This document shows positions 11,383 to 30,798 of a stretch of DNA of 64,000 nucleotides, piece after piece. The translations under genes were made by a program, and so were the position numbers. Every line of letters starts with the position of its first letter. The stretch's first letter is position 1. This DNA comes from Micromonospora sp. NBC_01699. Lineage in GTDB: Bacteria; Actinomycetota; Actinomycetes; Mycobacteriales; Micromonosporaceae. The notes beneath the pieces were generated by a model. That model saw only the letters and a program-made list of their open reading frames with translations. It was not told the origin of the DNA and did not search any database. The stretch is taken from positions 5,394,001 through 5,458,000 of the forward strand of contig NZ_CP109199.1 in NCBI RefSeq assembly GCF_036250065.1, written 5' to 3'.

Positions 11383-13563
11383 TCACGTCCGTGGGCGTTG
11401 CACGAGCCGGCTGGTCAAAAACGGGCTGGGCGTGCCATGCCAGGACACTACGAGTTCGTCGCGCGGACGAGTCGCGGCGACGAACAGCAGGGATCGATCC
11501 CGCTGGCGCTCGCGCTGGTAACGCTTCGGATCGCTGTCGCGGTATCGGCTGATCATCTGCCGGGGCACAAGTCCATCGCTGACCCCCGCGATGACCACAC
11601 GCTGGTACTCCAGGCCCTTGAACCGATGCATGGTGCCGACGTGGACGCCATCCGGGCGTCTCGGTCCGTCCGGGCCGATCTCGACCACCATCACGCCCTC
11701 GGCCTCCAGACGGGCAGCGATGTCGTTCGCGAGATCCTTCGTTGGTACACAGATCGCCACCGAGCCGTCAGCCGGGTTGCCCCAACTCCGCAACTGCTCG
11801 GTGATGAGATCCCGCTCCTCGCTCCAGGTAGCCGCGCTGCGGAACGTCGGCTTGCCGCCGCGCAGCAGTGACCGGTAACCGGCCAGGTCCTCGGCTCCAC
11901 CGTCGAGATCGTCGTAGACCTCTCCGGTCATGATCTGCAAGGCGTCCGCGAGGATCTGCCGGGTGGTTCGGTAGCTCAGGGTCAGACGCGACGAGCGACC
12001 ACGGATATTGACACCGAGGCTGCTCAGCGTCACGTGATTGTCATAGATGCGCTGGTGGGTGTCGCCGGTAAGGAACAGGTCGTCCGGACCGGGCGCCACC
12101 ATCGCCCGCAGCATCTTCCAATGCGCGGCGCTCAGGTCCTGGGCCTCGTCCACGACGATGTGGCGGTACCGGGGGCGGTAGAGACCTGCCGAGGACTCGC
12201 TACCGTTGGCTGGCTGCTGAGCAGCTCGATCCATCTCCAACCGGGCCGCCCGCTGAGCTACCTGCCGCCAGGTCCAGACTCCCTGGCCTTCGAGCCAGCT
12301 CGTGAACCGCTCGGTCAACTGCCAGATCTGGTCCCGCTCGGCCCGGTTAAGCGTACGTCCGCGATTGGGACGGCGGGCCTTGAAATAGTCGGTCCTGGAG
12401 TTGAGCACCTGTCCGAGAATCACCTGGGTCCACTCGGCCGTGAGGAACTCCGCATCCCAGCCGGACACGCCGGTCTCGACGAGGAAATCGGTCCACAACT
12501 GCGGGACCCGGTTGTCGTCGACCACTCGCCTGGTGCCGCCTGCCTTGGCCTCGGCCACCACCCGGCTCGCCAGCCGGTCAATGTTGACGATGTCAACCCG
12601 GGAGACCAGTTCCTGCCCACACAGCGCCATGAGACGAGTACGCAGGTCGGCCGCGAGATTTCGGTTGAAGGTGGTGAGCAGGATCGGCTTGTCCGTGCCG
12701 GGCGGCAACTGCCGGGCGAGATGCGCGACCCGGTGCAGGGCGACGATGGTCTTGCCGGTGCCCGGCCCCCCACCGACCCGAGCAGGCCCGTTGTACCTGC
12801 GTTCGACGAGTTTGCGCTGGGTAGGGTGTAGGAAGATCTGCCAACGCTCGAATGACTCGTTGAGCATGGCCTGGAGTGCCTCGTCGTCCGAGGAGACCTG
12901 GGTTGCCGGACGCTCCACCGCCGCCTCGAAGTCCTCCGGGTCGATCGGCTCGTCGGCCCGTACCGGGTCTGTGACCTGCTTGAGCACATCGTCGTACGGG
13001 ACACCGTCGAAGAGCGCAAAGAGCACGTCGGTAGTCAACTGGGGCGCGCGGTCGAGCAGTTGCAGCAACTCGGTCTCGTCGGCCAGGTCTCGGATCTGCG
13101 GCAACAACGGCTCGGCCACCCCCAGGTCGATCAGTTGGGGGTCGGTGTACGCGTCAAAGAGCGGCTTCTTCGCGGGCGCCGGTTTGGTTTCCGGTGGCAC
13201 CACCCGACCGACGATGCTGTCTCCCACCGGCGCAAGGTCGACGACCTCGATACCGCCGGTGACCCGGTTGATCCGGTACGCGTACCGGTCCAGGTCCTCG
13301 TAGACCTCGCCACGGTGCTTGACTGCGACGAGGAGGTAGTCACGCTCAGTGATGTGCAGGAGCAGAGCACGATAGTCCTTGCTGACCCGCGCAGACATCA
13401 GACGGGCGTCGCCATTGAGCGGCTTGAGGTTGAGGCCAGGGTTCTCCGGATTGTTCCGGAACTTGTGCATGAACTCGTAGACCGCGCCTTTGTCGGCACG
13501 GTTGAGCTTCATGACCTCCTTGTCAGCCCGATCCAGCATGCGCAAATTGGTTCCGGTGTTCAT
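11383..13563 (-). CDS. UvrD/Rep-like SF1 helicase with N-terminal RelE/ParE-like domain
   Basis: A protein of 726 residues with an unusual two-part architecture. Residues 1 to about 105 look like a RelE/ParE fold: MLDRADKEVMKLNRADKG, LKPLNGDARLMSARVSKDYRALL and a strand with YLLVAVKHRGEVYE. After a linker comes a superfamily 1 helicase: GGPGTGKT at 265-272, LTTFNRNLA, VVDEAQDLS at 471-479, TGDTHQRIYD, LSYRTT, and VGTMHRFKGLEYQRVVI then LLFVAATRPRDEL near the C-terminus. The RelE-like part more likely recognises RNA or a partner than acts as a free toxin. Its ATG overlaps the stop of the giant helicase gene (ATGA), so the two are translated together and probably act together in defence. Confidence 0.92.
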   Translation of the reverse strand: MNTGTNLRMLDRADKEVMKLNRADKGAVYEFMHKFRNNPENPGLNLKPLNGDARLMSARVSKDYRALLLHITERDYLLVAVKHRGEVYEDLDRYAYRINRVTGGIEVVDLAPVGDSIVGRVVPPETKPAPAKKPLFDAYTDPQLIDLGVAEPLLPQIRDLADETELLQLLDRAPQLTTDVLFALFDGVPYDDVLKQVTDPVRADEPIDPEDFEAAVERPATQVSSDDEALQAMLNESFERWQIFLHPTQRKLVERRYNGPARVGGGPGTGKTIVALHRVAHLARQLPPGTDKPILLTTFNRNLAADLRTRLMALCGQELVSRVDIVNIDRLASRVVAEAKAGGTRRVVDDNRVPQLWTDFLVETGVSGWDAEFLTAEWTQVILGQVLNSRTDYFKARRPNRGRTLNRAERDQIWQLTERFTSWLEGQGVWTWRQVAQRAARLEMDRAAQQPANGSESSAGLYRPRYRHIVVDEAQDLSAAHWKMLRAMVAPGPDDLFLTGDTHQRIYDNHVTLSSLGVNIRGRSSRLTLSYRTTRQILADALQIMTGEVYDDLDGGAEDLAGYRSLLRGGKPTFRSAATWSEERDLITEQLRSWGNPADGSVAICVPTKDLANDIAARLEAEGVMVVEIGPDGPRRPDGVHVGTMHRFKGLEYQRVVIAGVSDGLVPRQMISRYRDSDPKRYQRERQRDRSLLFVAATRPRDELVVSWHGTPSPFLTSRLVQRPRT

Positions 13564-16500
13564 CGACGCTCTCCCTCACTCGTCGCTTCGATCCGCGCCG
13601 CCAGTTCGTCTGCCGACCAGTCCCGTGCGGTACGGGCGTGCCAGCCCGCGACCGCGTACGCCTGGTCCCGGTCGGCCACCTCCGGGTCGTCCTGCGAGCC
13701 GGCGAGCACGATCGCTACCCGCCGGTCCGGCCAGGCCAGCTCGGCCTGCCAGCCCTGGTCGCCGAGTTCGTACCCGACCACCGGTGCTGGCGCACCCTGC
13801 CGTGCCAGCTGCTGGACGAGCGCTTCCAGGGTGCTCTCGTCCCGGTTCACGTACTGCAACACCTCGTGCCAGGGTGACTCGTTGTCGACGGCCTCCTGCT
13901 CGACCGGCACCTGCTGGGCGACGACGCCGAGCCAGGTGGCGGTCTCGTTGTCCAACGGCAGCGCCCGCCGCGCCAGCGTGAACCCGGTGCCCTCGGTGAC
14001 CGCCATGGAGGCCGGGTCGAAGGAGTCGAGCGCGGAGGAAGCAAGCTGCCCCGCATCCCCGCCCCCGTTGGCGACGAACTGGACGATGTTCCCCCAGGCC
14101 AGCCAGGAGGCCCAGCGCTTCTTGTGGCCATCGCCGGTCACCGCGGCTGCCGAGTCGTCGATCACGGACAGTGCCGACCAGACACGGGTGTCGCCACGGC
14201 CGTCGACGATCAGGGTAAGCGAGCAGTCTGCGTCGTCCCTGGCGCGGAACAACGCGATCCGGCCCGGCTGCGCCGGCGGCAGCGGTTCACCGCGAAGGGC
14301 GGACAGGATCCGCTCACCGATCCCGCCGGAGGCCGCAGCGGTCTTCTCCCGCGCCTGTGGAAGCAGACCGGCGAGGGTCGCTTCCGCCCTCTTCTGCCAG
14401 AGGCCCAGGTCAGGATCGGCGAGAAACTGCATGAGTAGGTCGATGGGATTCGTCCAGACAACGCGTCTCAGTTCGTCGGGGTCCGCGACGGGGGCGATCT
14501 GCCGGTACAGATCGCGGGCCTTCTGCTGCCCGTTTCCCGCGTACGGCGTCCAGCTCCCCGGCTTCTCCTCGTTGCCCCAGGTGGTGACGTCGTCCCAGGT
14601 GGCGGCGAAGACGCGGTAGTTGTGAGCGCGGAGCCGTGCCCGCTTCTCCGCGTCGTCGGCCAGACGGTTGTGCTCCGCCGAGGCGTGGTACTTGAATCCG
14701 TCCAGGTAGACGGCGACCTCGGGCGACGGTGCGTCAAGCCGCTTGAAGTGGACGTCGGGCCGCGTGCCCCGGATGGTGTTTTGAAGTTTCATCTGCCAGT
14801 GCGTCATGTTCTGGCCACCGTTCGTGGTGAACCGAAGATCGGCGATGCGGGCCCCGTCGTGGTCGGTACGCCGTTCGATCCGCAGCCCGGAGCCGGGTAG
14901 CTCGGGGCGGGCCAGCAACTTGTTGAGGAAGAGCATTTCCAGCTCGCTCTCCACCTGGTGGATGAGCGAGATCTCGTCGGTGCGGGGTCCCTGCTGGACC
15001 TCCCAGCCGTCGAGTAGCCGGTCCAACATGGACAACGCCTCGTCACGGCTCATCAACGCGAACTCCTCGTTGCGCGCGTAGCGCAAAAGGCAGCGGTGAC
15101 AGACGGCTTTGCCCTCGGTCCGGCAGACGCAGTCGGCGATCCTTTGGCGAGCCAGCTCCAGGATGGCCCGGAACTCCTCAGGCCGGGCGAGCCGGTGGAG
15201 GTAGCCGGTGCCCTGAGGCTGTGTGTCGTATACGACGACGAAGTTACGCGTACCGCCGCTCTGTCCGTCGGGCATCGTCGCCCGTACGACCTGGAGATGT
15301 ACCGGATCGCCACCGTACTGGGCCGCGATGCCCAGGCGGACGGCGGCGGCGAACGAGACGAGCCGCTCCTGCACCACGGCGGTGACCGCGGGTATCAGGA
15401 TGCGCAGCGCCTCGGTTTCCAGTTCATGGGCGAGGATCAGGTCGACGTGGGAGTCGGGGCCGCTGGGCGAGCGCCGGTACGGACACCACGGTCGGTGATG
15501 CTCAGCCCCCTGGATCACTGTCGAGCCGGACGCCTCCGCGGCGAGTTTCTGACCGACGGCCGGCGCTCCGTCGACCGTGGTTCCGCCGCACGATGTGCAG
15601 GTGTGGAACCGGGTGATCCGGACCTCATCGCCGGCAAACGGTTCGGTGGCTCGGTCGTACCGCTGGGCGCCGAGGTTGAAGTGCCGGATCATCGCGTGCC
15701 GGCTGTAGTCGACTCCGAAGGTGTCGTGTGCGTGCCGCCACGACGACTCGACCCTGCCCGGGTCGATGTCGACGGCGACGGTGGTGGCGTAGAAGCGCCG
15801 GTCCCGGTCGTCGCTGTCGTCCCGGATGCGTGCGTCCTCCCGCTTGTCCCGGCTGAGCACCCGGGTTGGTTGGAGCACCCTGAACAGTCGCCCGTGATCG
15901 GCGATGCCCTGGTCGGCACAGCGCGGGCAGGGGCTGGTGTCCTCCTGCGCCAGGTGGGTACGGACGTAGCCGCACTGGGCGCAGACCCGCCACTGCTCGT
16001 ACGCCGGCCGGTCGGCCGGGCCGACGTCCAGCCCGGAGATCTCATGTTTGTAGCCGCGCACGTAGTAGCTGTTGCCGGGGGCGATCTCGACCAGCGCCTG
16101 CCGGGCGGGCCGGTCGTATTCGCGCAGCTCGCTGTGGAACCGCCGGTCGCCCTCGCTTTTCTCCTCCCAGGTGAGCGTCGCCTCCAACGCCGTCCGGGTG
16201 TCGATCAGGGCGTAGTTGGGAAGCAGGCCGAACTCGACCAGGGTGGCGTGCGCGGCGGCCGAGCTGACCTCGCGGAGCCGCCTGCGGATAGCACCCGCCT
16301 CCGCTTTCAGCATCCTCAGTTCACGGGCGTGGTCCGGGTCGCTCGGAACCAGCGTGCCGCGCGCGGTATCGATTTCGTGGAGCCGACGCCGCAGGTCCGC
16401 GAGGCGGTCCTCCCACGCGTCGTCCGCCTCCGTGACCCGGTGAACGATGCCGTCGGCGGCGAACTCGCGTAGCTGGTCGGCGGCGACCGGAAGCACCTTG

Positions 16501-19500
16501 TCGCCGAAGAGCACGAGGAACTCCTCGACCAGGCGAGAACCATCGCGCCGACCTGCCTGGGCCAGACCGCTGAGCCAGCCGTTCGGGCCGAAGAGCACGT
16601 GTGCGCGGCGGGGCATGGGCATGACCCCGGGCAGCCGGTCCCGGGCGGCCAGGTCGATCAAGTGGGCCAGGTATTGCCGGCGCAGAATCTCCACCGCCGA
16701 GAGGAAGCAGCCGGGCGGCACGATCTGCCCGGCGATCATGTCGCGCGGCTCGGTCAGGTAGTAGCGGTCCCGCTCCGTGCGACCGACGAGGGTCAGCACC
16801 AGGGCGTTGCCGCTCTTACGGCCGGCCCGGCCAGCCCGTTGGACATAATTGGCCGGTCCGTGCGGCAGCGACGCCAGTACGACGGCGGACAGCGCACCGA
16901 TGTCGATGCCCATCTCCAGCGTGGGTGTACAGGAGAGCACGTTCGGATCGGTGTAGCGGTCGCCCTCGCGGAACTGCTTTTCGACAGTCTCCCGCTGGGC
17001 GCGGGTCAGCATGCCGGTGTGCTCGCCGGTGACCACCCGGAACACGGGGCTGTCCAGGTAGAGCCGACGGTAGTAGTCCCCCGGCGCGGTGTCGTCGTGG
17101 GCCGCTCGTAGCCGTCCCGCGCAGCGGTACTGCCGGCACGGCTGTCCGATCCAGTCGGCGACCCGGTCCGGGTGTTCGGTCTGCTGCCAGTGGCAGGTGT
17201 CGCAGCCGACCCCTGCCACCGCCGCCGCCGTATCATCGAGCCGGGTCACGCGAAGATGGCCGGGCATCAGGCCGTACACCGTGTTGCCGTCGTCGGTGTT
17301 GCCGGCGGCGACGATGTCCGCCGCGGCTAGGGCCGGCAACAGCCGGGAGAGGTAGCCGGCGGCCTCGTTGAGGTCCAGCCCGAGGCAGCGGGAGGTCCAG
17401 TCCTGGTACCAGTTGCCCCGCGCGGTGATCGCGTCGAACTCGGAGCGTGCCTTGGGGGTGGCGAGCAAGAATGCGGGCGCGGAGAGGCCCCTCGGGAAGG
17501 CTGGCATGCCGGGCGGCCGCCCGCCCCAGACCTGCCAGCGGGTGCCGCCCCGCTTCAGGTACGGCGCCAGCCACTCGTGGTAGATCGCTCCCCGGGTACG
17601 CAGCCGTTCCAGCAGTCCTCGGAGGAAGGCGAGGTAACGGGCGTCGTCCGGCTGGGTACCGTCGAGCTGGCCCGGCCCGGTGCGCTGGACATCGCGGCAG
17701 ACGACCGCGGCCTTCGCCGGATCGCCGAGCGCGACCTCGACGGCGATGCTGCGGGTCAGTTCCAGGGTACGGCCCTGCCGGGCACGTAGGCCGGTCTCCA
17801 TCACGGCGGCGAAGACCAGCCGCTCGCTGATCAGGGTCCAGGTGTCGCGGGCACCGATGTCCTCACCGGCGAGCAGGGTGTCGACGCCGGGCTGGTCGTG
17901 CAGATCGGGTGGTACGACGGTGGAGAGGATCTCCGGCTGTGCCGCAGCCTCGATCATGTTGACGAGGAGCTCGTCCAGGCCGACCGTCACGCCGGGCGAC
18001 AACTTGTCGGCGAGCAGGGAGCGCAGCGAGAAGGCGTACGACCGGTTGGCGACGAAGCCGGCCCGGTGCGCGGCGTCCTGGACCGAGTCGTTGAACAGCA
18101 GGGTCTTCTTTTCGGTTCCCTTCAGCTCGGCACCGGTGAAGAGCTGGGTGATCGCCACCGAGGCTAGGGTGGCCAGGCCGGCTCCGAGGAACCGGATGCC
18201 ATGATCCATTTGGCAGGACGGACAGCGGTCCTTCTCCGCCCCATCTATGCCGAGGATGTCGCCGAGCACGACGACCGCCTCGTCGACCTGCTGCTGGTCC
18301 TGCCCGGGTTTGAAGGGCCGTACCCGCCGACCGTGTTCCAGCACCAGGAGCCCACCGGAGCGCCGCTGCACCTCGTCGCCGGTGGCGGCGATGAGGGCAC
18401 GGACCCGCCGCTTGTCCCGACCGATGCTGGCCCGGTAGATCTTGTCCGGGTCGGTCTCCAACTCCTGCGGATCCTTCTCCGGTGACAGGGCCATCCAGCC
18501 CGACCGCCCGCAGTGGCGGCAGTAGATGGCGGGCAGCCGGGGGTGGCGATTGTCGGCGACCACCGCGTCTGCTTCGGGCGCGTACGGGTCCTGCTCCCGG
18601 GGTGGCTCTCCGTACCAACCGAACGCGGCCCGGTGGGAGGTGCCGCGCAGCAGTCGGGAGACGGCACGTACCCAGAGGTGGGTTTCGATGTTGAGTAGCG
18701 GACGACCCGGTGCATCCGGGTTCTGTGCCATGGAGAGCAGGCCGACGAACCGGGCGAGAGCCTTGGCAGTGATCTCCGGGCGGGTCTTCATCGCGCTGCC
18801 CCAGCCGGTGGCGTTCTTGCGCGGAAGCACGTCGATGATCTCGTCGAGGGTGCGCGGGGCCGGGCCGAGGGAGTCGAGCACCGCCTTGGTCAGTGGGTGC
18901 TGGCGCAGCAGCTCACCCAGCCGGGTCGGGTCGTCGACGCGGCGTTCGCCGAGCAGCAGTTCGGAGACCTCCGCCATCATCTGCTCCGGGTCGTGGTCGT
19001 CGACTGCGGCGAGCTCTTCGGGACTGGGAAGCGGCAGATTGAAGTCCTGTTTGGTAATAAATTCGCCCGGTTCGTACCGCTGCTCGCCGATCAGCGAGCT
19101 CTCGTCGAAGCTCGTACCGAAGACCTGCTCGGCCACCTCGCGGATCGCCGTACGACCATCCCGGCCACCGCCCTCACCGAGCGTGGCGGACGTGGCGACC
19201 GGGCAGATCGACCCCAGCGGGCGGTCCGGCCGGGCCAGGTCCAGGGCGGCGCCGAGCCGCCGCAGCAGCATGGCCACGTCGGTCCCCTGCGCGCCGTCGT
19301 AGCTGTGGAATTCGTCCAGGACCACGTACGCCGGCTCGGCCCCCTCCCAGAGTGGGAGGTCGTCGGCGCGCTGTAGCAACAGGTCGAGCATCTTGTAGTT
19401 GGTGATCAGGATGTCCGGCGGAGTGCGCCGCATCTCTGACCGCTTGGTCATCACGTGTGGGTACTCGGTCGCCGCCACGTCGCCGATGTAGAGACCTGCC

Positions 19501-19985
19501 GTGACCTGGACGAGCGCCGGATCGCGCAGCAGTCCGTCGATGCGCTGCGTCTGGTCGGTGGCCAGCGCGTTCATCGGGTACAGCAGGATCGCCTTGATCC
19601 CGACCCGACCCCGCCTCTTCTCCCGGAGGCAGTGATCGAGCACCGGAATCAGGAACGACTCGGTCTTGCCGGAGCCCGTACCGGTGGTGATCAGGGTCGG
19701 CTCGGCGGCCTTGCCCTTCGAGGAGAGTCGGGCGAACGCCTTGGCCTGGTGCAGATAGGGCGCGAAGTCGACCGGCGCCCAATCCAGGCTCGCCCGCCAG
19801 TCACCCTCCGCCGGCCGGAACGGGGTACGAATCCGCAGGTACGGCCCCCGGAAGATGCCCTGCTCCGGGTGGGAGAGAAACCCCTCCAAACCCTCGCGTA
19901 CGCCGTCCTCGGTGAGCCCGAAGGTGGTGGTCAGGTACTGGGTGAGGGTCCTGCGCAGGGTGTCGGCGGCGACGGTGGGCCTCAT
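13560..19985 (-). CDS. Giant DEAH helicase with zinc-binding clusters, DUF1998 and C-terminal nuclease-like domain (DISARM/Druantia-like)
   Basis: A protein of 2141 residues. SF2 helicase motifs: GTGSGKT at 102-108, LDEFHSYDG near 223-231, the SAT motif in VATSATLG, and LEMGIDIG then QRAGRAGRKSGN near 1052. CxxC pairs (CRHCG, CPSC, CDTC, CAQC/CPRC, CTSC) suggest several zinc sites. A DUF1998-type end carries CVC...CHRCLLRY near 1625. Around 1690-1790 a segment with ESELEMLFLNKLL, RPDVHF and EVAVYLDGFKYH resembles Vsr/DUF559-type nucleases (inference). DrmA/DrmB of DISARM and DruE of Druantia contain helicase and DUF1998 parts; the length is closest to DruE, while the neighbouring SNF2 and methylase genes recall DISARM. 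The ATG at 19985 begins conserved sequence; an upstream extension of 28 codons is possible. Overlaps the RelE-UvrD gene. Confidence 0.9.
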   Translation of the reverse strand: MRPTVAADTLRRTLTQYLTTTFGLTEDGVREGLEGFLSHPEQGIFRGPYLRIRTPFRPAEGDWRASLDWAPVDFAPYLHQAKAFARLSSKGKAAEPTLITTGTGSGKTESFLIPVLDHCLREKRRGRVGIKAILLYPMNALATDQTQRIDGLLRDPALVQVTAGLYIGDVAATEYPHVMTKRSEMRRTPPDILITNYKMLDLLLQRADDLPLWEGAEPAYVVLDEFHSYDGAQGTDVAMLLRRLGAALDLARPDRPLGSICPVATSATLGEGGGRDGRTAIREVAEQVFGTSFDESSLIGEQRYEPGEFITKQDFNLPLPSPEELAAVDDHDPEQMMAEVSELLLGERRVDDPTRLGELLRQHPLTKAVLDSLGPAPRTLDEIIDVLPRKNATGWGSAMKTRPEITAKALARFVGLLSMAQNPDAPGRPLLNIETHLWVRAVSRLLRGTSHRAAFGWYGEPPREQDPYAPEADAVVADNRHPRLPAIYCRHCGRSGWMALSPEKDPQELETDPDKIYRASIGRDKRRVRALIAATGDEVQRRSGGLLVLEHGRRVRPFKPGQDQQQVDEAVVVLGDILGIDGAEKDRCPSCQMDHGIRFLGAGLATLASVAITQLFTGAELKGTEKKTLLFNDSVQDAAHRAGFVANRSYAFSLRSLLADKLSPGVTVGLDELLVNMIEAAAQPEILSTVVPPDLHDQPGVDTLLAGEDIGARDTWTLISERLVFAAVMETGLRARQGRTLELTRSIAVEVALGDPAKAAVVCRDVQRTGPGQLDGTQPDDARYLAFLRGLLERLRTRGAIYHEWLAPYLKRGGTRWQVWGGRPPGMPAFPRGLSAPAFLLATPKARSEFDAITARGNWYQDWTSRCLGLDLNEAAGYLSRLLPALAAADIVAAGNTDDGNTVYGLMPGHLRVTRLDDTAAAVAGVGCDTCHWQQTEHPDRVADWIGQPCRQYRCAGRLRAAHDDTAPGDYYRRLYLDSPVFRVVTGEHTGMLTRAQRETVEKQFREGDRYTDPNVLSCTPTLEMGIDIGALSAVVLASLPHGPANYVQRAGRAGRKSGNALVLTLVGRTERDRYYLTEPRDMIAGQIVPPGCFLSAVEILRRQYLAHLIDLAARDRLPGVMPMPRRAHVLFGPNGWLSGLAQAGRRDGSRLVEEFLVLFGDKVLPVAADQLREFAADGIVHRVTEADDAWEDRLADLRRRLHEIDTARGTLVPSDPDHARELRMLKAEAGAIRRRLREVSSAAAHATLVEFGLLPNYALIDTRTALEATLTWEEKSEGDRRFHSELREYDRPARQALVEIAPGNSYYVRGYKHEISGLDVGPADRPAYEQWRVCAQCGYVRTHLAQEDTSPCPRCADQGIADHGRLFRVLQPTRVLSRDKREDARIRDDSDDRDRRFYATTVAVDIDPGRVESSWRHAHDTFGVDYSRHAMIRHFNLGAQRYDRATEPFAGDEVRITRFHTCTSCGGTTVDGAPAVGQKLAAEASGSTVIQGAEHHRPWCPYRRSPSGPDSHVDLILAHELETEALRILIPAVTAVVQERLVSFAAAVRLGIAAQYGGDPVHLQVVRATMPDGQSGGTRNFVVVYDTQPQGTGYLHRLARPEEFRAILELARQRIADCVCRTEGKAVCHRCLLRYARNEEFALMSRDEALSMLDRLLDGWEVQQGPRTDEISLIHQVESELEMLFLNKLLARPELPGSGLRIERRTDHDGARIADLRFTTNGGQNMTHWQMKLQNTIRGTRPDVHFKRLDAPSPEVAVYLDGFKYHASAEHNRLADDAEKRARLRAHNYRVFAATWDDVTTWGNEEKPGSWTPYAGNGQQKARDLYRQIAPVADPDELRRVVWTNPIDLLMQFLADPDLGLWQKRAEATLAGLLPQAREKTAAASGGIGERILSALRGEPLPPAQPGRIALFRARDDADCSLTLIVDGRGDTRVWSALSVIDDSAAAVTGDGHKKRWASWLAWGNIVQFVANGGGDAGQLASSALDSFDPASMAVTEGTGFTLARRALPLDNETATWLGVVAQQVPVEQEAVDNESPWHEVLQYVNRDESTLEALVQQLARQGAPAPVVGYELGDQGWQAELAWPDRRVAIVLAGSQDDPEVADRDQAYAVAGWHARTARDWSADELAARIEATSEGERR

Positions 19986-20118
19986 GAGCGGATCACCGCC
20001 GAATGCTACTGCGCTTACACGGGGTGCCGAACCCCCGCCCGGTCCGACATTTTGGACTACCGGCCGCATGGTTCAAGCCGACCAACAGAGCCTCAACAGC
20101 ACCGGGCACGCATGGTAG

Positions 20119-20159
20119 GATCTCACCCAGTCGCCCAGATCTCCAAGATCTGGCAGATC
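20119..20159. promoter_or_regulatory. GATC-rich palindrome in promoter of the RHH-RAMA gene
   Basis: A perfect palindrome CCAGATCTCCAAGATCTGG at 20135-20153 (8-bp arms, 3-bp spacer) contains two GATC sites. Two more GATC sites lie at 20119-20122 and 20156-20159, and another just inside the gene at 20189-20192. It sits 22 bp upstream of the GTG of the SeqA-like/RAMA gene and between that gene and the divergent giant helicase. Likely an operator; a methylation-sensitive one is an attractive inference. Confidence 0.55.
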
Positions 20160-20174
20160 ACGTATGGAGGTGCA

Positions 20175-20615
20175 GTGCGTCGAATAGAGATCGATGACGA
20201 GGTCTACTCGCATCTGGAGGCGCGTGTTCAAGGCTTCGAGCAACCCAATGACGTTCTGCGACGGCTGCTGCTTACGCCCGGCACCGTCACGAAGAGCGTC
20301 AGCCCATCCGCCGGCCGTCAGCCCATGTCGTCCATCCCGGGTGCCCTCGCGGAACTCATCGCGAAAGGGCCCGTGAAACCGGGGGACGCGCTCGCTCACG
20401 TCCAGGCGCGGAAAGGTCGGAGCTTCACCGCCGTGGTCGAGGCGGATGGCTGGATCAAGACTGACCTCGACCGCTACAAGGACCCGTCTCCGGCTCTCGG
20501 AAAGCTGGTCGGCACGGCAATAGACGGCTGGGCCAACTGGACCCACCAGCCTTCCGGCAAGACGCTGCGACAGCTACGCGCCGAGAGTGGTGGCGCGGGA
20601 CGCGGGGGCCGCTGA
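20175..20615 (+). CDS. SeqA-like ribbon-helix-helix plus RAMA domain DNA-binding protein
   Basis: A small protein of 146 residues, the only plus-strand gene in the defence island. The N-terminus, RRIEIDDEVYSHLEARV followed by NDVLRRLL, closely resembles the dimerising domain of SeqA (IEVDDELY...DILRRML). The C-terminus, GRSFTAVVEADGWIK then KDPSPALGKLVGTAIDGWANW, matches the RAMA (restriction enzyme adenine methylase associated) pattern, with the SPSAA-like turn and the NGWxxW-like end. RAMA domains are predicted to read modified DNA. GTG start with GGAGG just upstream; a start slightly elsewhere is possible. It is divergent from the giant helicase gene and followed at once by a terminator, so it is a probable autoregulated controller of the island. 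Function is inferred. Confidence 0.8.
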   Translation: MRRIEIDDEVYSHLEARVQGFEQPNDVLRRLLLTPGTVTKSVSPSAGRQPMSSIPGALAELIAKGPVKPGDALAHVQARKGRSFTAVVEADGWIKTDLDRYKDPSPALGKLVGTAIDGWANWTHQPSGKTLRQLRAESGGAGRGGR

Positions 20616-20620
20616 CCCAC

Positions 20621-20651
20621 GAGTGGGCGGGGACCGAGGCCCCGCCCACTC
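20621..20651. terminator. Terminator hairpin after RHH-RAMA gene
   Basis: GAGTGGGCGGGG (20621-20632) pairs perfectly with CCCCGCCCACTC (20640-20651) across a 7-nt loop, starting 5 bp after the stop codon. Confidence 0.75.
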
Positions 20652-21058: not shown

Positions 21059-21137
21059 TACCGCGCCGCAGTCATCGGCGCGGGGTCGTCCGTGCGGGAT
21101 GCGGGTACGAGGTCGGTACGTCCTCGACTTTGTGTGG

Positions 21138-23192
21138 TCAACCAACTGACTTCCGGGCCCCCCGTACGCCACGGTCGTTCGCACCCGGCTCGACGTCAGG
21201 CACCGTGCAGCGGCCAGACGCGGGGAAGAGCCGGGCGGCAATCGCCCCTGCGGAGGGGAATTCGTCGCCGTACTCCTCGCTCCTGTGTGACCTGATCTCT
21301 CCGACTGTCAGGAACGCGCCAGGCGGAACTGCGGCAAATGCCGAGACGATATGGGCCGCGATGTCTCTCCGCCCGGTGGCCGAAGCGCTGGCCAGACCGA
21401 ATCCAAGAGACGTTTTGGCCTCATCTGCTGCTTGCCGCTGCACCTCGGCCACTGCCGCAGGATCAACTCCTAGTAGGTCGAGCAGCCGCTGGCGCATGAG
21501 GGCGCGACGCCTATCGTAAAACTCAAGAAAGCCATCTAGCTCCGGCATTTCCCCGAGGTCGTTCCGCGCAAGGTAGCCGGACCGTGCGCCAGAATCAGGG
21601 TAGGCCCGCACCACCCATTCCGCCGGCAGAGCCGCGCGCTTGTCGACATTCTCAGCTCCTTCCAGCAGTTGGAGGTTCGCTAGCCGATCACATCGCTCAA
21701 GGTATAGCGGGATCTTGTCTTCCGGAATCCCCATGGACCGCAGCCGAGCTGTAGTGAACCTGCTACGCGGATAGACATGGTCGACATGAAATGAGTTGCG
21801 CACATCGATCCCAGGGTAGAGCAGGGCGAGTAGCGCATAGGTTCGCGCTCCACCATACTTAATATCAAGCAGGTCCTCGACCTCGAATGGATCGAATCGC
21901 AATGGCTTGCCTTGTCGCGCCATTTCACGCTCCACCGCCACACGGGGAAACCCGTAGCGCGCCTCAGCGTCGAGCACCGCACGAAGGCCGCTGAGCAGCG
22001 TATCGAGCCCACTACCCCAAATCCCGCTCTTGATCACCGCTTTCAATAACCACCGCCGAACCTCATTGCGATCTACCGCATCAGCAGCACGGCGCAGGTA
22101 GCCATCATCCAGCCGGCGAAGGTGGGCGTAGTGGGCGAGCGGAATCATCACGCTGCTTGCCGGCAGAGTAGCCGACGAGAAACCAAAGTCGCTCAGCAGT
22201 TGGGCGGCTAGGCGAAGCGACCGCTCGATATCCTCCCAGCCATCCTCCATCTCCAGCATCGTGTGTCGATCGAAGTTGCCAACCTTGAACCGAATATCAC
22301 CCTTCCCCAACAAGACCAATCCGGTCTTGAGCACACTGTTCTTGTCAAAGTTGAAACCCTGACCCGTGCGGTTCAGATCATCAACGAGCTCGTGGATCTC
22401 CTCTCGCGCATCGCGGTCCCGCCACTGGGAAGTTGCGATACTAAGAAGCAGATCACTAAACGAAAGAGGAACAGCGCCACTGTTAACGCGTATAAAGATG
22501 TTCAGCACCTTTTCGAGGCGCTGGTCCTCCTCCTCGAAGTAGTTGATCAACGTCTGTCGTTTCACTACGTCGTACAGCTTGAAGAGCACTCGACCTGCCA
22601 CAACAGGAAGATTGTGTTGCGCCGCAATGTCGAACACCTCGTCACCCTCGTTCACCTCGCGGATATCTCCGACGAGAAACCAGAACGATCCGTCTACCGA
22701 AGCGGCCGCCTCTTCTGGGGTGAGGAAACGGAAACGGTAAGCGAGGTCCAATTCATCGTCGTCGCCCCGGGACAGCAGATCGATGTACAGCCTCTTGATG
22801 GGATACGCGGACGGGTTGTTGGCACGCATCCGCGGAAGTTTCTCGGCGTGTGACCCCCGAAGGCCGATATTCAGCGCAGTCAGCCGCTGCTGCCCATCAA
22901 GGATTGCGGTTACCGCCCGCCCCCGTTCGACATCCAGAGTTGGGCAATGCGGCGAGTTCTTGGCGTGATAGGTGCGCACGAAGTCATAGAATGTATAAGA
23001 CTTTACGTGCTCACCATCCACCTTCCAGAACAGGAATGAGCCAATTGGATAACCACGCATCAGACTGTCGAACAGCTTGCAGATTCGGTCAGGACCCCAG
23101 ACGAACTCGCGCTGGATCGCAGGAAGGACGTACTCATGGCGGTTCATCCGCTCGAGTGCGGTGGCGATTGTGATGGGCGCTTGAAACGGCAC
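21138..23192 (-). CDS. DUF262 (GmrSD/ParB-like) protein with HNH-like motif
   Basis: A protein of 684 residues. The DUF262 core is seen as QREFVWGPDRI at 27-37, RGYPIGSF near 46-53 and ILDGQQRLT at 97-105, the nucleotide-binding/DNase-type motif shared with GmrS and SspE-like effectors. Near residue 470, FHVDHVYPRS fits the DUF1524/HNH-type part of GmrD. The C-terminal about 90 residues (AHIVSAFAAVPPGAFLTVGEI, EEYGDEFPSAGAIAARLFP) form a distinct small domain, perhaps a winged helix. Such proteins are modification-dependent restriction enzymes or companions of other defence systems. GTG start with GGAG five bases upstream. Its base composition is visibly lower in GC than the flanking helicase genes, which suggests later arrival. 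Confidence 0.88.
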   Translation of the reverse strand: MPFQAPITIATALERMNRHEYVLPAIQREFVWGPDRICKLFDSLMRGYPIGSFLFWKVDGEHVKSYTFYDFVRTYHAKNSPHCPTLDVERGRAVTAILDGQQRLTALNIGLRGSHAEKLPRMRANNPSAYPIKRLYIDLLSRGDDDELDLAYRFRFLTPEEAAASVDGSFWFLVGDIREVNEGDEVFDIAAQHNLPVVAGRVLFKLYDVVKRQTLINYFEEEDQRLEKVLNIFIRVNSGAVPLSFSDLLLSIATSQWRDRDAREEIHELVDDLNRTGQGFNFDKNSVLKTGLVLLGKGDIRFKVGNFDRHTMLEMEDGWEDIERSLRLAAQLLSDFGFSSATLPASSVMIPLAHYAHLRRLDDGYLRRAADAVDRNEVRRWLLKAVIKSGIWGSGLDTLLSGLRAVLDAEARYGFPRVAVEREMARQGKPLRFDPFEVEDLLDIKYGGARTYALLALLYPGIDVRNSFHVDHVYPRSRFTTARLRSMGIPEDKIPLYLERCDRLANLQLLEGAENVDKRAALPAEWVVRAYPDSGARSGYLARNDLGEMPELDGFLEFYDRRRALMRQRLLDLLGVDPAAVAEVQRQAADEAKTSLGFGLASASATGRRDIAAHIVSAFAAVPPGAFLTVGEIRSHRSEEYGDEFPSAGAIAARLFPASGRCTVPDVEPGANDRGVRGARKSVG

Positions 23193-24755: not shown

Positions 24756-25484
24756 TTAGACCTGTGCCGGAAAGCTCGCTTTGGCTGCGCGACCAACCAG
24801 AGCGGTGAAAGTTGCATCCACTCCGGCGCCGACGACGCCCCCGGCAATCGGGATGCCCTTCGCCAAGGTAAGAACCGACCGCTGCGTCCCGTACTTGGCG
24901 AGAAGCATAAACCCCACCCGCGCGTTGATCCTCCGAATGACAGCGATCGGGATCGCCTTGATTACTTGCGCAGTCAACTTTGTCCCGATCTTGACTCCGA
25001 CCCCATGGAGTGCGCTCCCTAGCGTTCCGCCCGCCGTCGCGAGTGTGATGACGGTCTGGACGTGCGGGTCCGAGATGTCGTAGCCCCGAAGGTACGCAAT
25101 CGCCCCAACAAGTCGCGCGTTGATCACCAGCGCCCCCGCAACGTTCGCGGGGAGCGTGACGGGCATGGTCACGAAACCGCCTAGGCCGGTGAAGAACCCG
25201 TTTGTCGAAGACGCAGCCATAGACTCCTTGATTAGTCGATCGATTACCCGCTCGATCGCCGCCTCGCTCACTTGGTCACGCAGTGGCTCGCGATCAGAAT
25301 CGGTAAACGGGCCGCGCATGTACGGGTCGACCTTGCCGAGACGGGCCTCCGCGTATGGGATCGACCCAGCGATCGGACCTACACCATCTCGGGTGATCCT
25401 GATGACCTGATTCTGGAAGAAGCGAACCATCGCGTTGGAAGTACCCTCACCGTGTTCGCCCGCGTCCGTCTCGTTCGCGTCCAT
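24756..25484 (-). CDS. EcsC-family protein
   Basis: A protein of 242 residues. After a charged N-terminus it has glycine- and alanine-rich hydrophobic stretches typical of EcsC proteins: GFFTGLGGFVTMPVTLPANVAG near the middle, ARLVGAIAYLRGYD, ITLATAGGTLGSALHGVG, and near the end AKGIPIAGGVVGAGVDATFT. EcsC proteins are predicted to be membrane-associated; their activity is unknown, and they occur with phage-defence and toxin genes. The ATG at 25484 has GGAG close upstream; an alternative start 19 codons earlier exists. It lies in the same direction as the methylase gene but about 400 bp downstream of it with a transposase relic between, so it may have been inserted into the island. Confidence 0.8.
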   Translation of the reverse strand: MDANETDAGEHGEGTSNAMVRFFQNQVIRITRDGVGPIAGSIPYAEARLGKVDPYMRGPFTDSDREPLRDQVSEAAIERVIDRLIKESMAASSTNGFFTGLGGFVTMPVTLPANVAGALVINARLVGAIAYLRGYDISDPHVQTVITLATAGGTLGSALHGVGVKIGTKLTAQVIKAIPIAVIRRINARVGFMLLAKYGTQRSVLTLAKGIPIAGGVVGAGVDATFTALVGRAAKASFPAQV

Positions 25485-25544
25485 CGCTCTCCGTCCCTGG
25501 TAGCGCTCGCGGCTCATCGAACCACACGCGTGGATCGACACCGT

Positions 25545-25881: not shown

Positions 25882-28800
25882 CTACGAAGGCTGCCAACCC
25901 CCATCGATGGCGTCCTGGAGCCGCTTACTGAACTCCGCGTGCGCCTGCCGGTACTCGTTCTCCCGATCCGCCTTGTAGAACGGCGCCACGTACCCCTCCG
26001 GCACCGGATTCCGCTCCGGGTCATCCAGGTACGCCATCAACTGCTCGTAGTGCTCCTTCGTTTGCCCGTATCCGAACGCGTAGGGATCAGCGGCGATTCT
26101 CCGGCCAGACACGTCGCACCACATTCGCTCCTCGCGCTCGTTGAGGATAGGGTACCGCGCCCGCAGGATTGCGATCAACTCCTCTATCTCGATGCCCAGC
26201 CAGACGGCTACCAGTGCGTCGATCTCGACAAGCGCGGCACGTCGCTCTCGCTCTGTTCTGAGCGGCGTCCCCCCGTCCCACGCCGGCCCAACATCTCCAA
26301 GCGATCCCAGCCCTGCCCACCGCACCGCCCACCGCTCGGCACGCCAGCGCGGATCGAATAGTTCGCTCCACAGGGCCGCGAACGCATTGGTTAAACAGTT
26401 GAGCCGCAGCGTCCTCAGCAGTAGATCGGGCGCCAGTGGGTGGTCGACCTGCGGCGAGGGCAGGGCCTCCAGATCGGCGACGTCCAGATGGCCTCGCCCC
26501 GTGATGCGAAGTTGGTAGTCGATCGGAAGCGCCGCTAGGAGCCCACCGACAATCGCCGTGGCACGATTGGTTGTCATTGACATGCTGCGGACGGCATGTA
26601 TGTGCGCCGGCCCCGGAGGGATGAGCGCCGCGAATAACGAGCGCTCAATGTTAAAAGCGATCATTTCGCGCCACACGACCCGATAGTGGCTTGTATATCG
26701 TTCTCCATTCCACAGGTCCTGGGCCTTTTGGGTCTTCGACTCCTCCGGGGTTATGACGTAGTTCGTTCTTGGCACAAAGTCTTCGGGCAGGGCGGTAAGA
26801 TCGAGCGGGTCCCAATCATGGTTGTTGCGATATGGGATACGGGATTGCTTGGCGAACGGCGTCGCGACCCCGAACTGCGGTCCCTGGATGACGAGTCCCG
26901 CAAGATTACGCGGTGTGATCTGTTGCCACCGAATCAGGCCGTCCTTTTTCGCGCTTGCCTCGTGATAGCCACTACTGATGTATGGAGCGTCGGCCGCCAA
27001 CCGGCGGCCGACCGACGCTAATGCGGCAATGGCGCGCTCTTCGTGCACCGTGACCGGCTGAAGTAGCGACGCGTGGGTAACATCCTCCTCAGTCTCACCG
27101 CCGCGCAGCCGCTGCCACACCGCCAGCGTCGACTCGTCGACCTCGACCACCCGGGACGAGTGTGGCCGATTATCCGGTGTGCCACCGTAACGCTGGCCCG
27201 GCACCGGTCCGTCCCCAAGATGTCTTAGCGATTCGGGCAGCACCGACGCGGTGTAGAGCCGACTCAGATGATTGAATCGAACGGGACCGGGGCGGCCGTA
27301 GACGTGCAGCCCGAATTCGACAGCCCGGCCTGCGTCACTGAACGCCCAGTTACCGCCGTTGACGAACCCGCCATGTACCCGAAGACGGTGGTATGCGGCG
27401 CTGCGTAGGAGAACCTCCTTAGTGCCAGCGAAGTGCGTGTCCGGATGCACAAGTCCTGCTGTCCCATCCCGACCGAGATGAGTCCAAGTTCGACACATGA
27501 AGCATCGGTAGAGATTCGGCTGGGTGCCCACCAACAGCGGGTACATCGTTGAGTGCCCGAGCACGGCAGTCAAGCCGGCGTTGACAATCAGCTCGGCTAG
27601 AAAGTCCGATCGGGCTGACGCGGATTGTTTGAAGAGTGCACTCTTGCGTGCTCGCCAATCGTCCACCGGAGCCTTTTCTACCAACCGGAACCATGGATCG
27701 TGCTCGGCAAGAACACCGTCTTCTAGCCAGCGCGGACGGACCCAGGGCGGATTGCCGACCTGGATGTCAAAGCCGCCGTTGCCGAACGCTTGGGAGAAGA
27801 TTAGCTCCCAATGGAAGAAAGCTTGCCCTTCAGCAACCGACTCGGCTGATGGTAGCCAAGGGAAACGGCCGCCGAGGCGGTACGCTGGCTCCATACCCGT
27901 TGGGCCGATCAGCGAATCTTCGTAGTCGCTCAGTTCGTCCAATGACGAGAACCCGCTGACCAACGAGTCGGCTGGGATGTCGGCCCGCCCGATCAACGCC
28001 TCCGCGAAGGTCAGCCAGTCGTCGAGGTTGGTCAGGGCCACCGGTCGATCAAATTGTTCAGCCCGGCTAATCTTGCGTGTAACGGTCGGCCTCGTCGGCA
28101 GCTTAAGCTGCTGCGCCTGTTCCTGGCCAAAGATGTCGGTAACCACATAGACGGCTGGGTCCTCGTACTCCGGCTCTTCGCTCACGTGGGTTATTTCGAC
28201 GGGTGCTGCTGGGTACGCGTCGTCGGCGCCGTCGAGTAGGCCGACCTTGTCCAAGGGCCAGAACCAGAGCGCGCACCAGACGTCCATCAGCGTCTTGAGG
28301 CGCCAATATGGTGTGCCGGGGCTGGTCAGGTCTTCGAGAATCTTCTCCCGGGCCACCGCCCCGGTGACCGGTGGCAGGTCGTCAGCGCCCCAGACCTTGA
28401 TATCGCGGCGGATCTCCTGCTCCGAGATGGCCAGCCGCTGCTGCACCAGGTCCCACAGGAACTCGACCCGGCCGGCGAGCGCCTGCAACCTCGCCACCTG
28501 CGACGGCTTACCGCGCGAGCCCTTGGCGGACGGGACGCGCTTCATCGCCGTACGCCATGCTTTTAGTCGTTTAGTCTGGGCCGGCGCCAGCTCGCGGGCC
28601 TCCTTCTCCCCCGCGACCGCGCCCCAGCCGTCGGCGGGGAGCAGGAAGTGGTGGATGGTGCCCTCGTCGATCTTGCCGTCCCGGAACGGCTTGTCCTGCG
28701 GGGCGGTGGTCAGCCACGACTTGTCGGTGAGCTGCTTCGGGTCGTAGAGCTTGCGTCCGCCGCCGATGAGGGAATTGCCGCGCTGGAGGTGCAGGCCGAA

Positions 28801-30798
28801 CCAGGGGGCCTGGAGGCCGGAGTGCATGACGTTGAGCCAGAGCGAGACCTCGGCCAGTTCGACGGCGGTGCGGTTGAGGTCGACGCCGTAGCAGTTGTGC
28901 AGGGCGATGTACGCCTTCACCCGCTGGAGTTCGAGGTGGTAGCCCTCCGGTTCGAGGGTGAGCTCCAGCTCCTTCTGCCGGCGGCGCAGGTATTCGGCGG
29001 CGACCTGGTTGATCGCCTCGTTGAGGAAGGCGCCGGAGCCGAGCGCCGGCTCGCAGATCGTCCAGTCAAGCAGTTCACGTGCCCGGGTCGTGGTCCCGTC
29101 CTGGTCCAGGCGGTACTTCAACGCGAGCTGGACGGTGACCTCGGTCAGCGACTGCGGGGTGTAGTAGGAGGCGCTCGTCTGCCGGTCCCGGCCGGCGAGC
29201 CGGTAGACGAACTGACCCGGCTCGTAGCTGACCTGGCTGCGCACACCCGTGTACGGGTTCTCCTTGTAGACGAAGACAGCGTCCTCGTACTCGTCGTGCT
29301 TGGTGGCCGGGATCATCCACGAGCCGTCCTTGGGGTCGCCGTTCTTGGCCACCTCGTAGAGCTTCTCGGTGGCGACAAAACCGGTGTAGGACATCAGTCC
29401 CTCGTAGACCGCACCGAGCTGGTTGATGCCGAGCTGGGCGTACGAGATGAACCCGCCGCGCCGCTTCCTGCCGCCCTTGGTGAGCATCAGCCGACGCAGC
29501 ACCTCGTAAAGGGTGGCGTTGCGCAGCCGGGTGTCGAGTTTCGGGCCATCGGGGTCGTCCGGATCGCTGTCCGGCTGCGGGAGCTGCCAACCGATCAGCT
29601 TCGTCTTCTCCGGCAGGAACAGGTCCGAACGCATCGGTTCGAACCGCAGCCCCTCACCCTCGCTGGCCTTCTCCTCGACGGTCTCGCCGCCTCGGGCCCG
29701 GTGACCCTCGTTGACCATCCGGAACAGCAGGTCGAGAGACTCGTAGAGGTGGAAGCCGCCCCCGGCCGAGGGGGCGAGTCGCCGGGAAATCAGGTCGCCG
29801 AGGCGGCCGAGGCTGTAGCCCTCGACGTACTCGGGGTCGTCGACGGGCAGCACGCCCAGTTCGGGGCGGGCCTCGGCGTAGAGCAGGAACAGGATCCGGT
29901 AGAGGTAACGCAGCGCCTCCCGCCCCAGTTCCTTGGCCAACTCGTCCAGCTCCATGACCTGCTGGGGCTGGTAGCCGGCCTGCCGGATCCGATCCAGGAC
30001 CTCGTTGGCGATGAGTTCGACCGAGATCCGCAGACCCTCGCGCAGCTCGCCGGAGACTCCGACGGCGTGCTGGCGGGAGCCGGCGACCAGGTCGGCGAGG
30101 GGTTCGGTGCCGCCCTCGGCGGGCGGGCGCAGCGAGTCGGCGCCGAAGAGCGCCGCGACGACGTCGAGTTCCCGCTCCTCGTTTCGGGCGTACGCGGAGT
30201 CGAGGCTGACCGCGAGGTAGCGGCCCTCGCCCCAGACGCTGCGGTCGGCGAGGGTGATCACACCGCCGCTGAGGATCAGCACGTACCGGGGTGGGTTCTC
30301 GGCGGCGAAGAGCCAGGAGGCGAGCTTCGCCCCGGTCTCGATGGTGTCGCCGCCGGCAAGGGTGACCGGGGCGAGCAGGCGGCCGGCGCCGTCCGGGTCC
30401 TGGGCCGCGTCGGTGTCGACCGCCCAACCGCAGTCCAGAGCCACGATGCCGTGTGCGGAGGACAGCTCGGCGTGCGCGACCCGGATCTCGTGCTCCTGGC
30501 CGGCCCGTTCGACGGTGATGACCTGCGGCTGCGGGTCGAAAGCAAGCGCCCTCAGCAGTTCGTCGTGCAGCTTGCGCAGCCGCTCCGGGTCGAACAGCTC
30601 GACGTCGGCCAACTCGGTCCGGGCGTCGAAGAAGTCGCGGCGCATTCCGACCAGGCCGGCGTCCGGGGTGAGCCTGCCGCCCTTCCTCTCCTCGGCCCAG
30701 CGTTTGAGCAAGCCGCCCTTGAGCGTGACGGGTAGCACCTCGGCAAGGTAGTGCGCGGAAAGGTATTCGCCGCGGTTGGTCAGCGATTCGAAACTCAT
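25882..30798 (-). CDS. Large adenine-N6 DNA methyltransferase (Eco57I/DrmMI/PglX-like)
   Basis: A protein of 1638 residues. It should transfer a methyl group from S-adenosylmethionine to adenine N6 in a specific sequence, marking self DNA. Motif I is CEPALGSGAFL near 582 and the catalytic motif IV is NPPW near 1016. The long N-terminal part (about 1-560) and the C-terminal part (about 1150-1638) are probably target recognition and partner binding; no PD-(D/E)XK nuclease is obvious. The first half is very GC-rich while about 25.9-28.2 kb is richer in AT, so the protein may be a mosaic. Its ATG overlaps the stop of the SNF2 helicase gene (ATGA), so methylase and helicase are made together, as drmD and drmMI are adjacent in DISARM. 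PglX of BREX is the main alternative relative. Confidence 0.92.
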   Translation of the reverse strand: MSFESLTNRGEYLSAHYLAEVLPVTLKGGLLKRWAEERKGGRLTPDAGLVGMRRDFFDARTELADVELFDPERLRKLHDELLRALAFDPQPQVITVERAGQEHEIRVAHAELSSAHGIVALDCGWAVDTDAAQDPDGAGRLLAPVTLAGGDTIETGAKLASWLFAAENPPRYVLILSGGVITLADRSVWGEGRYLAVSLDSAYARNEERELDVVAALFGADSLRPPAEGGTEPLADLVAGSRQHAVGVSGELREGLRISVELIANEVLDRIRQAGYQPQQVMELDELAKELGREALRYLYRILFLLYAEARPELGVLPVDDPEYVEGYSLGRLGDLISRRLAPSAGGGFHLYESLDLLFRMVNEGHRARGGETVEEKASEGEGLRFEPMRSDLFLPEKTKLIGWQLPQPDSDPDDPDGPKLDTRLRNATLYEVLRRLMLTKGGRKRRGGFISYAQLGINQLGAVYEGLMSYTGFVATEKLYEVAKNGDPKDGSWMIPATKHDEYEDAVFVYKENPYTGVRSQVSYEPGQFVYRLAGRDRQTSASYYTPQSLTEVTVQLALKYRLDQDGTTTRARELLDWTICEPALGSGAFLNEAINQVAAEYLRRRQKELELTLEPEGYHLELQRVKAYIALHNCYGVDLNRTAVELAEVSLWLNVMHSGLQAPWFGLHLQRGNSLIGGGRKLYDPKQLTDKSWLTTAPQDKPFRDGKIDEGTIHHFLLPADGWGAVAGEKEARELAPAQTKRLKAWRTAMKRVPSAKGSRGKPSQVARLQALAGRVEFLWDLVQQRLAISEQEIRRDIKVWGADDLPPVTGAVAREKILEDLTSPGTPYWRLKTLMDVWCALWFWPLDKVGLLDGADDAYPAAPVEITHVSEEPEYEDPAVYVVTDIFGQEQAQQLKLPTRPTVTRKISRAEQFDRPVALTNLDDWLTFAEALIGRADIPADSLVSGFSSLDELSDYEDSLIGPTGMEPAYRLGGRFPWLPSAESVAEGQAFFHWELIFSQAFGNGGFDIQVGNPPWVRPRWLEDGVLAEHDPWFRLVEKAPVDDWRARKSALFKQSASARSDFLAELIVNAGLTAVLGHSTMYPLLVGTQPNLYRCFMCRTWTHLGRDGTAGLVHPDTHFAGTKEVLLRSAAYHRLRVHGGFVNGGNWAFSDAGRAVEFGLHVYGRPGPVRFNHLSRLYTASVLPESLRHLGDGPVPGQRYGGTPDNRPHSSRVVEVDESTLAVWQRLRGGETEEDVTHASLLQPVTVHEERAIAALASVGRRLAADAPYISSGYHEASAKKDGLIRWQQITPRNLAGLVIQGPQFGVATPFAKQSRIPYRNNHDWDPLDLTALPEDFVPRTNYVITPEESKTQKAQDLWNGERYTSHYRVVWREMIAFNIERSLFAALIPPGPAHIHAVRSMSMTTNRATAIVGGLLAALPIDYQLRITGRGHLDVADLEALPSPQVDHPLAPDLLLRTLRLNCLTNAFAALWSELFDPRWRAERWAVRWAGLGSLGDVGPAWDGGTPLRTERERRAALVEIDALVAVWLGIEIEELIAILRARYPILNEREERMWCDVSGRRIAADPYAFGYGQTKEHYEQLMAYLDDPERNPVPEGYVAPFYKADRENEYRQAHAEFSKRLQDAIDGGWQPS

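Follow-up and report, generated by a model that had tools for sequence, protein, structure and literature searches.

Within the 64,000-nucleotide stretch of the Micromonospora sp. NBC_01699 genome that we analyzed (the window), a small gene on the forward strand (20175..20615) begins with a GTG start codon at 20175, is preceded by a GGAGG Shine-Dalgarno sequence (20166..20170, forward strand), and ends with its stop codon at 20615. The 146-aa product, here called the regulator, joins a SeqA_N-like domain (residues 3-33; 20181..20273, forward strand; Pfam PF17206, 24.2 bits against a cut-off of 23) to a RAMA domain (residues 43-137; 20301..20585, forward strand; Pfam PF18755, 50.4 bits against a cut-off of 35.2); as both exceed the Pfam cut-offs, the two domain calls made in a preliminary description of this DNA stand. 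A profile built from seven related sequences matched the SeqA structures 1XRX (E 2.5e-6) and 3FMT (E 6.4e-6) in the PDB, and these matches were confined to profile positions 1-46. By profile and Pfam, the C-terminal SeqA domain that binds hemimethylated GATC is absent from the 146-aa protein, in which residues 43-137 are RAMA instead. NCBIfam and PHROGs returned no match to the regulator, a Pfam scan at E up to 1 found neither a WYL nor a helix-turn-helix domain, and a match to VAPB_antitox was weak and below cut-off (E 0.0099). PADLOC filed the RAMA half under candidate PDC-S14. A below-cut-off match to ACP_syn_III_C and the corresponding PDB matches were rejected as chance and were gone when the alignment was used as query. 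By eye, the SeqA_N-RAMA proteins of L023, L025, and L026 carry an extra C-terminal domain with an alkyltransferase-like DNA-binding look.

Structure prediction had been proposed in the preliminary description. A first model (pLDDT 57) was set aside as too poor. The second, an AlphaFold model, had a mean pLDDT of 63, with residues 61-90 and 121-130 at 81-87 and residues 101-120 at 41-48. Its N-terminal part, modelled as a monomer only and in blocks of pLDDT about 60, showed an extended start followed by helices at residues 8-17 and 24-32. The first Foldseek match was the CcrM structure 6PBD, with a weak E of 0.029. When the top 1000 Foldseek matches were re-examined, the three best chains by Z (6.7-7.3) were all RAMA structures: MPND 7YDT (Z 7.3, rmsd 2.3, 68 aligned), MPND 7YDW (Z 7.0, rmsd 2.5, 71 aligned), and CcrM 6PBD (Z 6.7, rmsd 3.8, 73 aligned), followed by a chain at Z 3.6. 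A Z below 8, taken alone, could reflect a common structural arrangement; because of the gap to the next chain and the Pfam match, the C-terminal half of the model likely has the RAMA fold. The regulator would then share both profile and fold with MPND and the C-terminal domain of CcrM (PMC9963953, in part) but has its RAMA domain fused to SeqA_N rather than to a peptidase or methylase. Together, the domain and structure matches suggest the plan of SeqA with RAMA in place of the GATC reader.

The surrounding genes resemble an ARMADA type II set, all four types being present in the window on the reverse strand in the order A-B-(insert)-C-D: an ArmA-like SNF2 helicase (30795..33596), related to DrmD and under the DISARM cut-off; an ArmB-like PglX/type IIG N6-adenine methyltransferase with NPPW (25882..31026); an ArmC-like helicase of the YprA/DruE family with an MZB domain (13560..19985); and an ArmD-like UvrD/GajB helicase (11383..13563), in which Pfam was blank across residues 1-239, where a RelE-like N-terminal domain was looked for. 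Domains and gene order are like those of ARMADA type II, whose order the available text describes as strict (PMC12458937), but here the four genes are not contiguous: armB and armC are parted by an insert of 5.9 kb that carries a GmrSD gene together with the regulator. The inserted genes include a GmrSD_N (DUF262) type IV restriction gene (21138..23192, reverse strand), convergent with the regulator, and an EcsC-domain gene (24756..25541, reverse strand). A kinase gene precedes armA, as it does on two Streptomyces plasmids on which the four arm genes are contiguous.

ArmC matches occurred in 53 of 250 genomes, and 20 close relatives were compared. armB abutted armC in eight of these, an insert of 6-12 kb separated the two in five, and armB lay outside the examined stretch in seven, two of them at contig ends. 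The SeqA_N-RAMA gene was found in 0 of the 20 within the stretch examined, and in G195 the regulator and ARMADA are on different contigs. Other genes were seen upstream of armC: a RAMA-CBS protein in G232, G172, G077, and G091 (in G232 the CBS match fell slightly short of the cut-off), and a GmrSD gene in G202, G146, and G204. As a separate observation, the armB-armC junction (window 19986-25881; L114-L133) looks like an insertion hotspot in the family, with an insert seen in 5 of the 20 close relatives and possible in up to 12. The RAMA-CBS genes upstream of armC (L119:1149-2594, L128:3090-4577, L132:8230-9666, L116:11653-13872) include three, those of L119, L128, and L132, with RN(N/K/G)VMH in the C-terminus of the product, by eye like a HEPN RNase signature. 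The genome also has a second YprA-like helicase (contig 1, 5055640-5057676), which shares 37% identity with a 711-aa segment of the ArmC in the window.

Repeats at the regulator promoter

The preliminary description reported five GATC sites within 74 bp and a 19-bp palindrome upstream of the regulator, and both are indeed present. The sites lie at 20119, 20138, 20147, 20156, and 20189. The palindrome, which is perfect (8-3-8) and reads CCAGATCT-CCA-AGATCTGG (20135..20153), is our proposed operator. Overlapping it are three 9-bp direct repeats that begin with AGATC, AGATCTCCA, AGATCTGGC, and AGATCACGT (20137..20163, forward strand), of which the first and second each contain the palindrome AGATCT and together make up the 19-bp palindrome and the third is without a full palindrome. 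Three of the five GATC sites are thus in the operator region, at 9-bp spacing, and form the sole 9-spaced GATC triple in the window. The other two fall elsewhere: the site at 20189 is inside the coding part, in codons 5-6 (E-I) of the regulator gene, and that at 20119 overlaps the candidate -10 element, TAGGAT (20116..20121, forward strand). This element and a weak -35, TCAACA (20093..20098, forward strand), were read by eye; a mechanical promoter scan found no promoter. The proposed operator sits between this candidate promoter and the start codon.

The density of GATC in the cluster is unremarkable. The preliminary description had put the expectation at about 0.2 sites, a value that is valid only if bases are independent and GC is 70%; the window as a whole contains 473 GATC against 294 in dinucleotide shuffles, and this local density gives 0.55 per 74 bp. 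The cluster is the only one of five in the window, but an equal cluster appeared in 60 of 200 order-4 Markov windows of equal length. GATC is over-represented across the whole window, and no avoidance was seen.

As for the palindrome, its inverted-repeat score alone gave p 0.037, and the window contains 71 perfect inverted repeats with 8-bp arms and gaps of up to 10. A search of the 8.28-Mb genome for further copies carrying fewer than two mismatches found none; within the window, likewise, there was no second operator at that threshold, and the overlapping third repeat matched with two mismatches. Given that the genome holds it only once and that the relative G058 keeps it, we judge from these comparisons that the palindrome is more than chance.

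The divergent armC appears to have a promoter element of its own. Its start, initially placed at 20069, was moved to 19985 after comparison with relatives that share a conserved -10-like TAGCAT just before armC (20003..20008, reverse strand, in the window), and 19985 is therefore probably the start here. TAGCAT is common to the window and all 12 loci without an abutting armB. The proposed operator is about 130 bp away from it. The earlier suggestion that the regulator switches the divergent operon fares poorly on this evidence, since armC owns a motif that it shares with 12 stretches in which the regulator was not seen; control of armCD by the proposed operator is possible but not indicated.

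Homologues, their promoters, and their neighbours

Among 300 genomes of the family, 23 matched the regulator (E 1e-8), its own included; of three in the genus, only its own did. At E 1e-12, matches came from 9 of 397 genomes in the order and from 2 of 396 in the phylum, all these sets being samples from larger groups. Among 72,556 plasmid records, 23 had a match (E 1e-3), and 10 of these cover at least 80% of the query. Phage records gave zero matches at E 0.01 and only poor ones at E 10 (best E 6); viral contigs gave none with the single protein as query and two with the alignment. From this patchy occurrence among genomes and plasmids, we conclude that the regulator gene is accessory. A midpoint-rooted tree of 29 rows had one deep fork (support 100/99) between clade I (13 rows, including the window) and clade II (16 rows).

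The promoter repeats are best conserved in G058, whose homologue is 67% identical and has CTCCCAGATCTC-C-GAGATCTGGGAG at the equivalent promoter position, an inverted repeat with 12-bp arms and a 1-bp gap. When the operator was taken as 25 bp (20135-20159), 21 of 25 positions were identical in G058, and 0 of 500 shuffles were as good. Among 27 relatives, this was the only one beyond all shuffles; the promoter on the R. opacus plasmid, AAGATCTCCAAGATTTGAAGATTG, came next (16 of 25, equalled in 10 of 500 shuffles), the others were weaker, and many of the 26 relatives besides G058 scored at shuffle level. Other promoters displayed other boxes: AGACT/AGTCT in Gordonia JH63, where GATC is absent, and AACTT/AAGTT in R. 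ruber and the order relative G508. Across 28 homologues, inverted repeats upstream were enriched (Fisher p 9e-7, the rows not being independent), and direct repeats reached p 0.06 only. For G054, G527, G508, G856, G252, and other clade-II rows, the start taken in these upstream tables is that of the match, which lies slightly within the gene, by one or a few codons. A search of eight homologous loci for a second operator copy above 18/25, using a 25-bp query selected by eye and without a shuffle control, found none beyond the operator itself; together with the genome search at fewer than two mismatches, this is as expected of an autoregulator.

Counts of short motifs in the promoters of 11 clade-I relatives (positions -60 to -9, with the window and its near-copy G182 excluded) separated the half-sites from GATC. 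AGAT/ATCT occurred 28 times against 13.0 in shuffles (0 of 400 as high), with the reservations that these motifs were picked after the promoters had been inspected and that G270, G190, and L134 are close kin and not independent; GATC occurred nine times against 6.9 (81 of 400) and was not enriched. A control stretch 248-300 bp upstream had neither enrichment, and in 16 of the 27 relatives GATC is missing from the 80 bp upstream. Since AGAT/ATCT is enriched across clade-I promoters and GATC is not, GATC is best explained as arising incidentally where two half-sites adjoin, and not as a conserved element.

These results also bear on methylation, which the preliminary description had made the signal. 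In SeqA, hemimethylated GATC is read by the C-terminal domain (residues 65-181), and SeqA_N oligomerises (PMC6225831, in part). A SeqA-like reading is hard to reconcile with a regulator that lacks this C-terminal domain, and GATC as the signal with relatives that keep AGAT/AGAY half-sites and in many cases have no upstream GATC. Nor was a host GATC methylase recovered: searches of the genome with the profiles for D12 (Dam-type, PF02086) and PF01555 methylases found none, which concerns these two profiles and leaves room for other methylases. Genome searches with PF02384 and PF07669 overlooked the ArmB of the window itself. Because GATC is not enriched, the SeqA C-domain is absent, and no D12 methylase was found, the reasoning from GATC and SeqA fails, and by these comparisons the conserved mechanism does not involve GATC methylation. 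RAMA itself is a predicted methyladenine reader for which the published evidence of 6mA reading conflicts (PMC11037411 and PMC9963953, each in part): in the available text of the latter, the MPND RAMA has no 6mA preference and the CcrM RAMA contacts the backbone only.

The idea that the regulator is tied to methylating defence systems was, by contrast with the GATC signal, borne out by the clade-I homologues, which adjoin several such systems. With several searches pooled, a DNA methylase lay within 12 kb in 9 of 13 clade-I loci. In profile matches alone, with overlapping matches within one gene dropped and with a 12-kb radius that was selected after the loci had been seen, the count was four of nine clade-I genomes against 0.13 expected (P 1.2e-5) and 1 of 11 clade-II genomes against 0.13 expected. 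Besides ARMADA, six kinds of clade-I neighbours were observed: BREX-1, type I, type II, type III, DUF499, and GmrSD with an Eco57I methylase. In R. opacus, the regulator is directly upstream of a complete BREX-1; type I genes are near it in Gordonia JH63 and G058, type III genes in G569, a BsuBI/PstI-type restriction gene and an Eco57I-type methylase match in G132, a DUF499/DUF1156 set in G270, and an Eco57I methylase with a divergent GmrSD in an Aeromicrobium MAG. G190 has an N6 methylase 2.6 kb from the regulator, and in a Gordonia terrae fragment outside the tree the regulator adjoins type III genes. No methylase was found within 12 kb in G182 (the nearest is 29 kb off on its contig), near the regulator in G195 and G054 (the contig of G054 ends 1.8 kb downstream), or, by similarity to known examples only, in the 6-kb flanks of L134.

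In clade II, a methylase was nearby in G281 only of the 11 genomes. Among the five plasmid rows of this clade, only that of R. pyridinivorans has one, adjoining DUF499/DUF1156, and the incomplete gene table of the other four lists no restriction-type DNA methylase nearby. G109, also of clade II, has a DsbH/thioredoxin-type neighbour, with ORFs of similar size there in G094, G213, G078, G110, and G251. A further observation concerns a homologous gene of 362-381 aa directly after the regulator (L134:6519-7664; L038:18562-19707; L044:18557-19699; L042:18567-19655), the other copies being 84-95% identical to that of L134; Pfam at E 1e-5 gave no hit for the copies in L038 and L042, and neither PHROGs nor NCBIfam gave one at E 0.01 for that in L134.

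Readings of the regulator's role

Together, these data point to a mobile regulator gene and a protein that is probably autoregulated. The reading we favour, with reasonable though far from complete confidence, is that of an autoregulatory DNA-binding regulator that serves as an accessory module of defence islands. In this proposal, the SeqA_N-like domain would pair or multimerise the regulator and would probably also supply sequence-specific binding in the manner of a ribbon-helix-helix repressor, with short repeated half-sites as targets, here the three AGATC boxes 9 bp apart. Repressors of the ribbon-helix-helix type, such as MetJ and the omega repressor, use short tandem boxes. Occupancy of an operator between promoter and start codon would repress the gene's own transcription. 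As the sensor, the RAMA domain may contact DNA, which is perhaps modified, and may shift the regulator between its own operator and other DNA, which would tune the regulator's own expression and possibly that of adjacent defence genes. Counting against an operator-binding SeqA_N, the E. coli domain is not described as the DNA-binding part in the available text of PMC6225831.

The regulator resembles BrxR and RptR in role, as judged from operator repeats at its own promoter and linkage to defence genes. Like RptR, it would be a small defence-island autoregulator. RptR is linked to type I restriction-modification, and the operator at its promoter consists of three direct repeats of 9 bp, every one of them containing a 6-bp palindrome (PMC12255303, in part); of the three repeats in the window, just two have the full palindrome. 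RptR is compared in that source with helix-turn-helix regulators, with no RAMA there, and the likeness we draw is one of role. BrxR/CapW proteins likewise have a DNA-binding N-terminus and a possible sensor domain, stand beside many defence types, and have an inverted repeat directly downstream of the promoter (PMC9122601, in part), but they are built from helix-turn-helix and WYL domains rather than SeqA_N and RAMA. In the available parts of these two papers, neither BrxR nor RptR has a demonstrated modification sensor. With SeqA, the regulator shares an N-terminal oligomerising domain and the plan of pairing domain, linker, and DNA reader; it differs in the reader and in being encoded by an accessory gene (PMC6225831, in part).

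Other readings explain parts of the data. The original one, in which a SeqA-like sensor detects how the clustered GATC sites are methylated and turns the divergent helicase operon on or off, has in its favour the five clustered sites, three of them at 9-bp spacing, the predicted reader in RAMA, and a 189-bp intergenic region common to the regulator and armC; it seems to us very unlikely, as relatives' promoters are not enriched in GATC, the SeqA C-domain and a Dam-type or PF01555 methylase were not found, and armC has its own -10-like motif, also in loci not showing the regulator. That the cluster arose by chance and the gene is just an ordinary hypothetical one is less probable still, to the point of being hardly credible: 60 of 200 simulated windows do match the cluster, but the palindrome has no other copy in the genome and is preserved in G058.

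In another reading, RAMA would sense modified invader DNA, or the product of the cell's own methylase, away from the operator, so that the repressor is titrated and defence is induced. The links of homologues to many methylase systems, the RAMA-CBS and GmrSD genes upstream of armC in several relatives, and the DUF3780-RAMA reader fusions known from DUF499 systems (PMC12839542, in part) are in line with such titration, which we nevertheless regard as unlikely given the behaviour of the MPND and CcrM RAMA domains described above (PMC9963953, in part). Alternatively, the protein could be an adaptor or structural partner, for example one that brings GmrSD to modified DNA, or a mere antitoxin-like autoregulator. 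GmrSD is adjacent in the window and divergent in the Aeromicrobium MAG, the regulator is followed in L134, G182, G190, and G270 by a homologous gene of roughly 380 aa (84-95% identical), and the sub-cut-off VAPB_antitox match would fit; neither GmrSD nor the 380-aa gene is constant, however, and partners vary so widely that we consider this distinctly improbable, if less so than the GATC reading.

Overall, the regulator looks like a self-regulated defence-island controller and not a GATC methylation sensor, which corrects a tempting inference from GATC counts. We found no description of SeqA_N-RAMA proteins in the literature searched, largely without subscription journals. How methylation-based defence is switched on without harm to the host is poorly understood, and a RAMA regulator beside BREX, ARMADA, DUF499, and type I-III genes makes it directly testable whether the expression of defence is tied to modification. 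A bolder proposal, which we put forward tentatively and hold to be rather doubtful, is that SeqA_N-RAMA proteins form a family of modification-sensing transcription switches, built on the SeqA plan but with another reader, that move from one methylation-based defence system to the next and may tune the expression of these systems to the modification of the cell or the invader.
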